Source: Methylophaga thiooxydans DMS010 (lineage in GTDB: Bacteria > Pseudomonadota > Gammaproteobacteria > Nitrosococcales > Methylophagaceae). From it: 64,000 nucleotides of DNA. Numbering within the stretch: position 1 is the first letter of the stretch; each line of letters opens with the position of its first letter. The stretch lies in assembly GCF_000156355.1 (NCBI RefSeq), contig NZ_GG657899.1, forward strand, positions 175,910-239,909, given 5' to 3'. The notes beneath the pieces were generated by a model. That model worked only from the letters and a program-made list of their open reading frames with translations, was not told where the DNA came from and did no database searches. The translations under genes and the position numbers were made by a program. Positions 1,597 through 4,963 of this stretch are shown here, piece after piece.

Positions 1597-2484
1597 ATGC
1601 AAGGTCTGATGCTCGCTGTTCTGGCGTACTCTATCTGGGGCCTATTCCCACTTTTCTTTAGCTACCTGAACCATGTGTCACCGGTGGAGGTATTATCTCA
1701 CCGGATTATTTGGTCTTTGGTCGCTACGCTGTCACTAAGCTTGCTGTTACTACGTGGCCGATTACTGGCAAAAGCACTGCAAGACAAAACAACGCTAATT
1801 TGGCTGGGTGTTTCTTCACTACTGATTGCGGTGAACTGGCTGGTTTATATTTGGGCGGTAGGGCAACACCGTGTATTAGAAGCCAGTCTCGGCTATTTTA
1901 TTATGCCGGTGGTAAGTCTTCTGATGGGCAGAATCTTATTGAAGGAGCCATTACACCCGTTACAAGCCTGGGCGGGAGGATTAGCCCTTATCGCCGTGAT
2001 GTGGGAGTTGTGGATATTTGGCACACTGCCCTGGGTGGGCGTCGTATTGGCGTTTGCATTTGGTTTTTATGGGCTGGTGCGAAAAGTTCATCCGATTGAT
2101 GGACTGAATGGCCTTACCATTGAAACGCTCTGGTTATTACCTTTAGCGCTGGGGTTTATTGCCTGGCAGCTGTTTACTTCAGATAGCCAGATGGGCTTTG
2201 GTTTAGATAATCAAACAACGCTCTTACTTATTTGCTCAGGCTTTCTAACAGCGCTGCCGTTAGTGTTATTTGCAATGGCGACGCGCCGCATCAATTTATC
2301 GATTGTCGGATTCATAATGTATATCAATCCCACTATTCAGTTCTTAATCGGTGTGTTCGTGTTGGATGAGCACTTTCCAGAAGCACGTTTAGTCACTTTT
2401 ATTCTGGTTTGGTTAGCCCTGTTGTTGTTCGTGTCCGGTTTATGGCAAATGCAACGGCAAAAGCAGTCTTCACTAAGCAGTTAA
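1597..2484 (+). CDS. rarD: RarD-type EamA family transporter
   Basis: This 295-residue, very hydrophobic protein has about ten membrane helices arranged as two EamA repeats (roughly 5-140 and 150-285). The opening AYSIWGLFPLFF and the segment ISGFLTALPLVLFA-like around residue 210-225 are typical of RarD, named for its link to chloramphenicol sensitivity in E. coli. The true substrate is not known. The ATG at 1597 follows AGGA. The stop codon overlaps the stop of the convergent Lrp-type gene by three bases. No sign of truncation. Confidence 0.9.
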   Translation: MQGLMLAVLAYSIWGLFPLFFSYLNHVSPVEVLSHRIIWSLVATLSLSLLLLRGRLLAKALQDKTTLIWLGVSSLLIAVNWLVYIWAVGQHRVLEASLGYFIMPVVSLLMGRILLKEPLHPLQAWAGGLALIAVMWELWIFGTLPWVGVVLAFAFGFYGLVRKVHPIDGLNGLTIETLWLLPLALGFIAWQLFTSDSQMGFGLDNQTTLLLICSGFLTALPLVLFAMATRRINLSIVGFIMYINPTIQFLIGVFVLDEHFPEARLVTFILVWLALLLFVSGLWQMQRQKQSSLSS

Positions 2485-2951
2485 GTGACAGATAACGCCG
2501 TACTGTTGATGGGCGACTTCATCACAAATGAAGTATGTACACCGGTGACGCCCTCTATACGGGTCAGTTTATTCAGTAAAAACTGCTGGTAGGCATCCAT
2601 ATCTTTCACGATCACTTTGAGTAAGTAATCCGCAGATTGGCCAGTTATCAGGTGGCACTCAAGTACCTCAGGATAGTCGGCAAGCGTTGATTCCAACGCT
2701 TCAAAGCGTTCGGGTGTGTGTTTATCCATGCTGATGCCGATAAATGCCATCAGAGTCAGCCCCAGCTTTTTGGCATTGAGTAAAGCGACGTAACCATCAA
2801 TCAAGCCTTCCTCTTCCATTTGTCTGACCCGACGCAGGCAGGGGGAGGGCGATAATTTAATTGCTTCTGCTAATTCTTGATTGGTAATTCGCCCTTGTTT
2901 TTGCAAGGTATCCAGAATCATCTGGTCATAACGATCCAGTTTGTTGGACAT
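2481..2951 (-). CDS. Lrp/AsnC family transcriptional regulator
   Basis: The 156-residue protein has an N-terminal helix-turn-helix (about 5-60, with the recognition-helix region ending LSPSPCLRRVRQME) and a C-terminal AsnC/RAM effector-binding domain (about 67-145). The ATG at 2951 is chosen over a TTG four codons upstream because TTGGAG lies seven bases before it. The gene is divergent from leuA across an AT-rich region of about 100 bases plus the leuA leader. Control of leuA by this protein in response to leucine or another amino acid is plausible by position and family, but it is inference. Lrp, AsnC and amino-acid catabolism regulators cannot be separated from sequence alone. Confidence 0.9.
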   Translation of the reverse strand: MSNKLDRYDQMILDTLQKQGRITNQELAEAIKLSPSPCLRRVRQMEEEGLIDGYVALLNAKKLGLTLMAFIGISMDKHTPERFEALESTLADYPEVLECHLITGQSADYLLKVIVKDMDAYQQFLLNKLTRIEGVTGVHTSFVMKSPINSTALSVT

Positions 2952-3074
2952 GATATTCTCCAATAACAGGGTTGTAAGGTGATTTATATCAAAAAAAGTT
3001 ATTTTATAGAAATATTATTCCTTAAAAATTGAATTATATAGAATGTTAGCAATTTAATTCCAGTAGAACATCTT

Positions 3075-3259
3075 TATACTATTCTCCATGCCTGAAACCG
3101 GTAGCGAATGAGTCACAAGCTCTCGCTGGCACGATAACTCTCACATCACCACAAGTGATGGTCGATTTTCGTAGCCCTCCTGTTAACCCGACAGGAAATG
3201 TCAGTAACTCGCGAAAGGTTTCTCAGCTAACCATTGATGATGACAATCAGGAGTCAACC
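3075..3259 (+). promoter_or_regulatory. leuA promoter and structured leader with anti-Shine-Dalgarno
   Basis: A -10-like TATACT lies at 3075-3080 with no clear -35. The putative transcript then carries three hairpins: AGCGA/TCGCT with inner GAG/CTC (3103-3127), CATCAC/GTGATG (3144-3160) and TCCTGT/ACAGGA (3178-3196). The first two loops both contain CACAAG. The sequence CTCCTG (3177-3182) is fully complementary to the leuA ribosome binding site CAGGAG (3248-3253), and most of it is also used in the third hairpin, so the two pairings exclude each other. A nine-codon reading frame with two Leu codons runs from 3108 to 3137 but lacks a good ribosome binding site. Translational control of leuA is inferred. 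Confidence 0.5.
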
Positions 3260-4963
3260 ATGATTACCAATCCTGCTCAGAAGTACCGTCGTTTTGAGCC
3301 CATTCAATTAACGGATCGACAGTGGCCAAATGCTACTCTGGATAAAGCACCCATTTGGATGAGTACGGATCTGCGAGATGGTAATCAGGCCTTGATTGAT
3401 CCCATGTCAGTGGACACCAAACTGCGCTATTTTGACGAATTGGTAAAAATTGGGTTTAAAGAAATTGAGGTGGGATTCCCTTCTGCCTCAGAGACTGATT
3501 TCAACGTTGTACGCCGTTTGATCGAAGAAAATCGGATTCCTGATGATGTGACTATTGAGGTGCTTACTCAGGCACGTGAAGATCTGATTGCACGCACCGT
3601 GGCGTCATTAAAAGGTGCCCGGCGTGTGATTTTGCATATGTATAACCCGATTTCACCCACTTTCCGTGAGGTGGTTTACAAGAGCGACAAAGCAGGTGTT
3701 AAAGCTATCGCTGAGCGCGGGACGCGCTGGGTTAAAGAGATGACGGCAGCGCAGCCTGAAACCGAATGGGTATATCAATACTCACCAGAAGTCTTTTCCA
3801 GTACCGAAGTTGAGTTTGCTAAAGAAGTTTGTGACGCGGTGTCTGCGGTGTGGCAGCCGACGCCGGAGCATAAAATGATCCTTAACTTGCCGGCAACCGT
3901 GGAGATGTCGACACCGAATACCTATGCCGATCAGATTGAGTGGATGCATCGTAACCTCAACAATCGTGACAGCATTATTTTGAGTGTGCACCCACACAAT
4001 GACCGTGGCACCGCCGTGGCAGCGGCAGAGCTTGCTGTCATGGCAGGCGCAGACCGAGTGGAAGGTTGTTTGTTTGGTAATGGCGAACGAACGGGTAATG
4101 TTGATTTGGTGACGTTGGCGTTAAATCTTTATTCACAAGGTATTAATCCCGAACTCGATTTCTCGCATATTGATCAAATTCGTCAGATGTATGAGGAAAC
4201 CACGCAGTTACCGGTTCACCCCCGACACCCTTATGCTGGGGAATTAGTGTTTACAGCATTTTCTGGTTCGCATCAGGATGCGATCAAGAAAGGCTTTGCC
4301 GTGCAAACGAACGCTATTTATTGGCAAGTACCTTATTTGCCCATTGATCCTGCTGACTTGAACCGTAGCTACGATGCGGTGGTGAGAGTCAATAGCCAGT
4401 CTGGTAAAGGCGGTGTCAGTTTCTTACTGCAACAGGCTGCGGGCTTTGAGTTGCCACGACGGTTGCAGATTGAGTTCAGCAAAATTGTGCAAAAAGTCAG
4501 TGATGAAACCAGCAAAGAGGTTAACAGCAGCAATATCGTCAGCTTGTTTGAATCATCCTATTTACAAGTGGCAGCGCCCTACAACTACATGAGTAGTCAT
4601 GTGATTGATGAGGAAACCAGCAATGTGATTACCAAAATTGTTGCCAACTATGACGAGCAGCGTATAGAGCTGCACGGTCAGGGCAATGGGCCACTGGATG
4701 CGGCCGCGAAAGCTATCAGTCAGCACTTGGGCGTGACCGTGACGGTAGCGGATTATCACGAACATGGTATGAGCGCCGGATCTGATGCGGCAGCAGTCAG
4801 TTATGTTGAAGTTAAAGTAGGCGATAACGACACGGTGTTTGGGGTTGGTCAAGATAAAAACATCACCACAGCGGCGATTAAGGCCTTAATCAATGGTGTT
4901 AATCGCTTACTGATAGGGCATGCTCCTGAGCTGGCAACAGCTAAGCAGGAAGCTGTCTCATGA
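3260..4963 (+). CDS. leuA: 2-isopropylmalate synthase (LeuA type 2)
   Basis: LeuA condenses acetyl-CoA with 2-oxoisovalerate, the first committed step of leucine synthesis. The 567-residue product is of the longer, yeast/actinobacterial-like class. It has the catalytic DLRDGNQ (37-43) in the TIM barrel, the metal ligands HPH (244-246) and [10 protein letters not shown] downstream, and a C-terminal allosteric LeuA dimer domain (about 425-560, with [11 protein letters not shown] and [10 protein letters not shown]). The ATG at 3260 follows CAGGAG. The frame is open upstream to a GTG at 3155, but that extension overlaps the structured leader and is not expected in the protein. No leuB, leuC or leuD is nearby. 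Feedback inhibition by leucine is expected from the C-terminal domain. Confidence 0.96.

Follow-up and report, generated by a model that had tools for sequence, protein, structure and literature searches.

Leucine synthesis is, by textbook accounts, controlled through leader peptides, T-boxes and Lrp. The leucine attenuators, such as the leu leader and that of Shewanella, stand ahead of what we take to be a different type of leuA from the one in Methylophaga. In actinobacteria, the LEU element has a leader peptide with Leu codons, a base stem that is made with the Shine-Dalgarno sequence, and a pseudoknot, and its authors argue for a binding protein (PMC1262725). The livJ motif of Streptomyces is a candidate branched-chain amino acid riboswitch that has the Shine-Dalgarno sequence inside its P1 (PMC11109978). 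ANTAR dual-hairpin targets are found in the eut, nasF and amiE leaders, and have hexaloops whose first base is A and whose fourth is G (PMC3369931).

Here, we describe the leader of leuA in a stretch of 64,000 nucleotides from Methylophaga thiooxydans DMS010 (the window). The 5' leader of this mRNA appears to be a cis-regulatory RNA domain, and is very likely a control element of the leucine pathway. When the window and 40 related leuA loci were searched with Rfam 15, at the gathering threshold and also with E up to 5, there was no relevant match, two tRNAs in one locus excepted, and neither the T-box, nor known riboswitches, nor Termite-leu scored above the gathering threshold. The literature that was searched, which excludes most subscription journals and thus leaves absence unproven, describes neither a comparable leader RNA of leuA nor a riboswitch for leucine. 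The initial annotation of this DNA knew no named element with such an arrangement before a type 2 leuA and called the novelty an inference; in Rfam the leader is indeed unnamed.

Architecture of the leader and its promoter

The features of the locus are collected in Table 1. Among named LeuA loci, those closest to it are on Methylophaga contigs. The initial annotation had pointed out two hairpins that share CACAAG (3114-3119 and 3150-3155), a third one that overlaps CTCCTG (3177-3182), and a frame running from ATG to TAA (3108-3137). These strings, as well as CAGGAG and the three hairpins, all lie at these places. The annotation had missed P1, which closes the domain, and also the lower part of hairpin B.

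Table 1. Features of the leuA locus in the window
Feature	Position	Strand	Basis or remark
Divergent Lrp/AsnC-family regulator gene	2481..2951	-	PRK11169 135.6 bits, under its equivalog cut-off
GCAATTTAATTC box between the lrp-type gene and leuA	3049..3060	+	Nearly invariant upstream of leuA across the genus (alignment of Methylophaga upstreams)
TATACTAT, putative -10 box	3075..3082	+	Conserved across the genus and also in L118-L120
Structured leader RNA, whole domain	3087..3232	+	Match of model R2 (other sequences only), 75.5 bits, E 7.7e-21
P1 5' strand GCCTGAAAC	3090..3098	+	Pairs with 3217-3228; the window has one mismatch
Hairpin A, loop CACAA 3114-3118	3103..3127	+	Comparison of loop and stem with relatives
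P3 5' strand CTGGC	3126..3130	+	Shares bases with the ends of A and B; pairs with GTCAG 3200-3204
Hairpin B, lower stem GGCACGA/TCGTAGCC, upper stem 3144-3160, loop CACAA 3150-3154	3128..3176	+	
Hairpin C, TCCTGT TAACCCG ACAGGA, loop 3184-3190 (TAACCC/TTACCC/TTATCC type)	3178..3196	+	
P3 3' strand GTCAG	3200..3204	+	Partner CTGGC 3126-3130
P1 3' strand GGTTTCTCAGCT	3217..3228	+	Pairs with 3090-3098
leuA Shine-Dalgarno CAGGAG	3248..3253	+	Sequence; outside the structured domain, about 20 bases past the P1 3' strand
leuA, type-2 (yeast-type) 2-isopropylmalate synthase	3260..4963	+	TIGR00970 785.5 bits versus cut-off 697.4

Comparison with relatives shows that P1 closes a branched domain which encloses hairpins A, B and C, and in which the stems vary yet pair. 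Versions of P1 among relatives are AGCTGA/TCAGCT, GCCTGA/TCAGGC and GGCTGG/TCAGC, the stem of hairpin A occurs as GAGC/GCTC, GCGC/GCGC or CACGC/GCGTG, and that of hairpin B as ACGAGT/GCTCGT, CGATGTAC/GTACATCG or CAACCAC/GTGGTTG. As aligned, conservation outside the stems is mainly in A/C-rich loops, which are CAMAA on A and B (on hairpin A CACAA, CAAAA or CATAA throughout the Methylophaga relatives), and TAACCC, TTACCC or TTATCC on C. The additional stem P3, which shares bases with A and B, may be an alternative pairing or a coaxial extension. It is found in relatives as CTGAC/GTCAG, CTAGC/GTTAG, GTTTAAC/GTTAAAT and TATTTGA/TCAAATA, these forms being read from the relatives, and the group C form being counted. 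The leader in the window is more stable than most of its shuffled versions (z -1.94, with 7 of 200 equally stable), which is weak evidence alone. A scan for intrinsic terminators gave a sole candidate on the + strand, the upper stem of hairpin B followed by a broken T-run, GTCGATTTTC, where 0.3 are expected by chance; it does not sit directly ahead of leuA, where a terminator would normally be. Methylophaga leaders in general have no clear intrinsic terminator.

An Lrp-family gene is divergent from leuA in every Methylophaga locus that is long enough to show the neighbour. The GCAATTTAATTC box is probably a -35 region and/or a site for the Lrp-type regulator, with transcriptional control exerted by this neighbour. 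TATACTAT is a probable -10 box, in which case transcription would begin around 3089-3090. The pair of leuA and lrp also occurs in relatives of Gilvimarinus and in other gammaproteobacteria. In four Alteromonadales loci of Catenovulum and Alteromonas type (L042, L044, L045 and L048), the same pair has about 160 bases between the genes and no hairpins of the CAMAA/TACCC class.

Covariation among relatives

The leuA upstream regions of 22 members of the genus and family (23 leaders with the window) can be aligned from the promoter into the leader. Alignments of two subsets, A1 and A2, were built from sequence alone. The tested structures, which are drawn from the same sequences and thereby favoured over slid versions, pair 94.1% of the cells in A1 versus 30-41% for slid structures, with 12 pairs altered on both sides, and 80.7% of the cells in A2 versus 34-41%, with 28 such pairs. 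In both alignments the covariation score was matched by none of 500 shuffles, which retain the relatedness of the sequences. RNAalifold, run on A1 with no structure supplied, recovers P1, hairpin A, the upper part of hairpin B and hairpin C. For hairpin C, six of the seven pairs are altered on both sides in A1, and this hairpin, which CTCCTG overlaps, is conserved for its own sake.

Two covariance models were made, R1 from groups A and B, and R2 from group C and others. R1 matches all group C leaders (E 1e-7 to 5e-4), while R2 matches all leaders of groups A and B (E 4e-11 to 4e-19) and, outside the genus, the leaders L118-L120 (E 3e-6 to 0.007). That each model recovers sequences it was not trained on is stronger evidence than the shuffle and slide tests. 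Among 58 genomes from the genus, the family and more distant groups, 21 have one match each, at leuA (E <= 0.005), and other matches are weak. Of the weak ones, L174 and L179 lie inside protein genes on the opposite strand and are due to chance, and L175 and L176, which are near neither leuA nor lrp, were rejected. A scan of 369 genomes across the class with R2 returned Methylophaga and one chance match only, and R2 is therefore too specific for remote members. We regard the element as almost certainly a real, conserved leuA leader RNA. The initial annotation had named covariation as the test of its structured leader before a type-2 leuA; the leader is conserved and its stems do covary. Its on/off switch and its leader translation, on the other hand, did not hold up, as discussed below.

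The same loops in other gammaproteobacteria

Hairpins with GCCACAAGC are contained in the leuA leaders of Saccharophagus, Gilvimarinus and Neptuniibacter. A first set comprised 60 de-duplicated leuA upstream regions from other gammaproteobacteria. Every hairpin with a pentaloop was tallied there with no loop favoured, and the expectation was taken from dinucleotide shuffles. The counts are 21 of the 60 leaders for CACAA (0.23 expected), 7 for TACCC (0.12 expected) and 4 for CAAAA (0.07 expected); other loops counted were TGATC (6) and TATCC (5). A second set of 60 further upstreams was fetched afterwards, and here the same three loops are the top three, found in 17 (CACAA), 13 (TACCC) and 9 (CAAAA) leaders. 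Their hairpins number 18, 16 and 10 on the sense strand and 0, 0 and 1 on the antisense strand, respectively, and only about half of the second-set upstreams have hairpins of the CAMAA/TACCC class. In 25 genomes of the same set, the upstreams of ilvB and leuC are not enriched (2 hairpins in 25 ilvB and 1 in 24 leuC upstreams, no more than antisense). Nowhere in the window except in the leuA leader do two hairpins of this class lie within 80 bases. By these counts, the element goes with type-2 leuA and is confined to the sense strand. The shared CACAAG loops of the initial annotation are thus not a chance likeness, as conservation, covariation and enrichment all support the hairpins and their CACAA loops.

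In many remote leaders, two or three hairpins of the CAMAA/TACCC class fold into a domain closed by P1, and a compact group (L188, L191, L194, L199 and L215) has two TACCC hairpins with modest covariation of its own. That the remote forms are homologous to the domain of Methylophaga is not proven; the model matches only L118-L120 at E < 0.01, and beyond these, gene, position, strand and loop sequence suggest it.

Some lineages have features of their own. In L191, L199, L215 and, more weakly, L194, TCTCCAT near the 5' end of the leader can pair with ATGGAGA, the ribosome site of leuA, and so close the whole domain; this is a candidate Shine-Dalgarno switch in that group. In a single Neptuniibacter example (L047/L148), about 30-115 bases upstream of leuA, a U6 tract lies in the P1 3' strand after a terminator-like hairpin, and the P1 5' strand contains AAAAAAGC, so transcriptional attenuation is possible in this lineage. 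Six Duganella-type leuA leaders (L058, L061, L065, L066, L068 and L073) have two Leu-rich leader peptides with CTA codons about 175-265 bases upstream, and between the two a hairpin with GGCCACAAGCC (once GGCCATAAGCC), which is of the same loop class. In a few sequences of the Gilvimarinus group, the TACCC loop might kiss a GGGTGA loop.

Possible modes of action and known systems

Our tentative reading, which we give not quite an even chance, is that of a leuA-specific leader whose loops are read in trans by a factor that is probably a protein. The loops would be recognition sites, most likely for an RNA-binding protein that is multimeric. The reasons are that each leader has the same loop at least twice, that hairpins differ between lineages in their number, order and spacing, and that the junction yielded no conserved core. 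Binding would report the leucine status and alter leuA expression at the level of translation initiation, mRNA stability or Rho-dependent termination, these options being considered because Methylophaga leaders lack a clear intrinsic terminator. The divergent Lrp-type gene would exert its transcriptional control alongside this mechanism. Several points count against such a factor: the loop repetition could alternatively serve tertiary packing within a ligand-binding RNA, such hairpins are seen in only about half of the second-set upstreams and in none of the Alteromonadales leuA-lrp loci with a short gap, and no conserved link of the domain to the Shine-Dalgarno sequence was found.

A ligand-binding RNA of that kind, a metabolite riboswitch, is the main rival, although we consider it unlikely. 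Here, the branched domain would bind leucine, 2-isopropylmalate or a precursor and switch leuA expression. The leader of this pathway gene does contain a conserved domain that covaries, it has a compact, P1-closed multi-branch fold in one copy per genome, its single target gene is the committed step of the pathway, and in compact versions such as L191, L194 and L199 P1 is invariant and inner positions are conserved. Against this, the conserved bases are mostly in hairpin loops, the hairpins vary between lineages in number, order and loop class, leuC and ilvB lack the element, the literature searched holds no leucine riboswitch, and no expression platform was found, there being no consistent coupling to the Shine-Dalgarno sequence or to a terminator. 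A search for Shine-Dalgarno complements and partition-function folding of the 23 leaders gave no conserved link between domain and Shine-Dalgarno and no consistent partner for the latter. Capture of a Shine-Dalgarno TCAGG by the P1 5' strand CCTGA was dropped, its pairing probability being about zero in all leaders.

The same results bear on the mutually exclusive pairings proposed in the initial annotation, by which CTCCTG would pair either inside its own hairpin or with the Shine-Dalgarno sequence. Six contiguous pairs are possible in the window, but a six-base complement to the Shine-Dalgarno arises in about 10% of mononucleotide shuffles, which is near chance, and the predicted ensemble of the window does not use the pairing. 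CTCCTG is specific to the window; the pairing with CAGGAG occurs in 0 of 22 relatives, which have TTCCAG, CTCCAG or unrelated sequence at this position and at most five Watson-Crick pairs to the Shine-Dalgarno anywhere in the leader, about as often as shuffled leaders. We thus hold this switch to be very improbable. Attenuation by a ribosome on a leucine-codon leader peptide is also improbable, even if an ATG precedes hairpin A in 16 of the 23 leaders, two groups would encode MSHKLSLAR and MSHKLCLTQ, and Duganella leuA leaders do carry Leu-rich peptides. The start codon is missing in the other 7, the nine-codon frame of the window becomes anything from 9 to 24 codons, neither frame nor Leu codons are conserved (as an example, MRQKRGWHDALT), there are no conserved uORFs and no clear terminator, and SHKL is simply the hairpin GAGCCACAAGCTC read in one frame. 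We rate equally low a pairing of the loops with a small RNA or tRNA. The loops are conserved, and kissing interactions typically involve exposed loops whose sequence is fixed, but two loop classes (CAMAA and TACCC) occur in equivalent leaders and no partner is proposed. Slightly less improbable, though still a poor prospect, is a structural cap without regulation, which would stabilise the mRNA or keep the start site open. It would fit a Shine-Dalgarno some 20 bases outside the domain and a leader in which no switch was found, but the loops are conserved across lineages beyond the need of a plain stabiliser.

A family of RNAs that sense the leucine pathway, with arrays of CAMAA and TACCC pentaloop hairpins in many gammaproteobacterial lineages, might exist, albeit with considerable doubt, and would represent either the first leucine (or isopropylmalate) riboswitch or the target of a novel leucine-responsive, loop-reading RNA-binding protein. 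A structured leader that uses none of the textbook RNA mechanisms would be a separate solution, found in marine methylotrophs and polysaccharide degraders.

Each of the known systems shares something with this leader. The gammaproteobacterial leucine attenuators (the leu leader and Shewanella leuA, PMC2659441) are also leader RNAs ahead of leuA, but the Methylophaga leader has neither a conserved Leu-rich peptide nor a terminator/antiterminator pair. The livJ motif is likewise a candidate leader RNA of an amino acid pathway, but it belongs to another gene and another phylum and has its Shine-Dalgarno within P1 (PMC11109978). The LEU element is a structured leuA leader with a base stem (PMC1262725), whereas its Leu-codon peptide and Shine-Dalgarno base stem were not found in the Methylophaga leader, where the P1 3' strand stops about 20 bases before the Shine-Dalgarno. 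The ANTAR targets differ in that the leuA leader has CAMAA or TACCC pentaloops, the CAMAA loops not following the hexaloop rule (A at 1, G at 4), as well as P1 closure and no clear terminator. They resemble it in being tandem small hairpins in an mRNA leader, with conserved bases in the terminal loops and variable stems and linker (PMC3369931). It is this likeness, in which the loops stay identical while their stems differ and the hairpins vary in number and order, that suggests recognition by a trans-acting factor, for which the same five-base loops on unrelated stems would be a sharp and testable bait.
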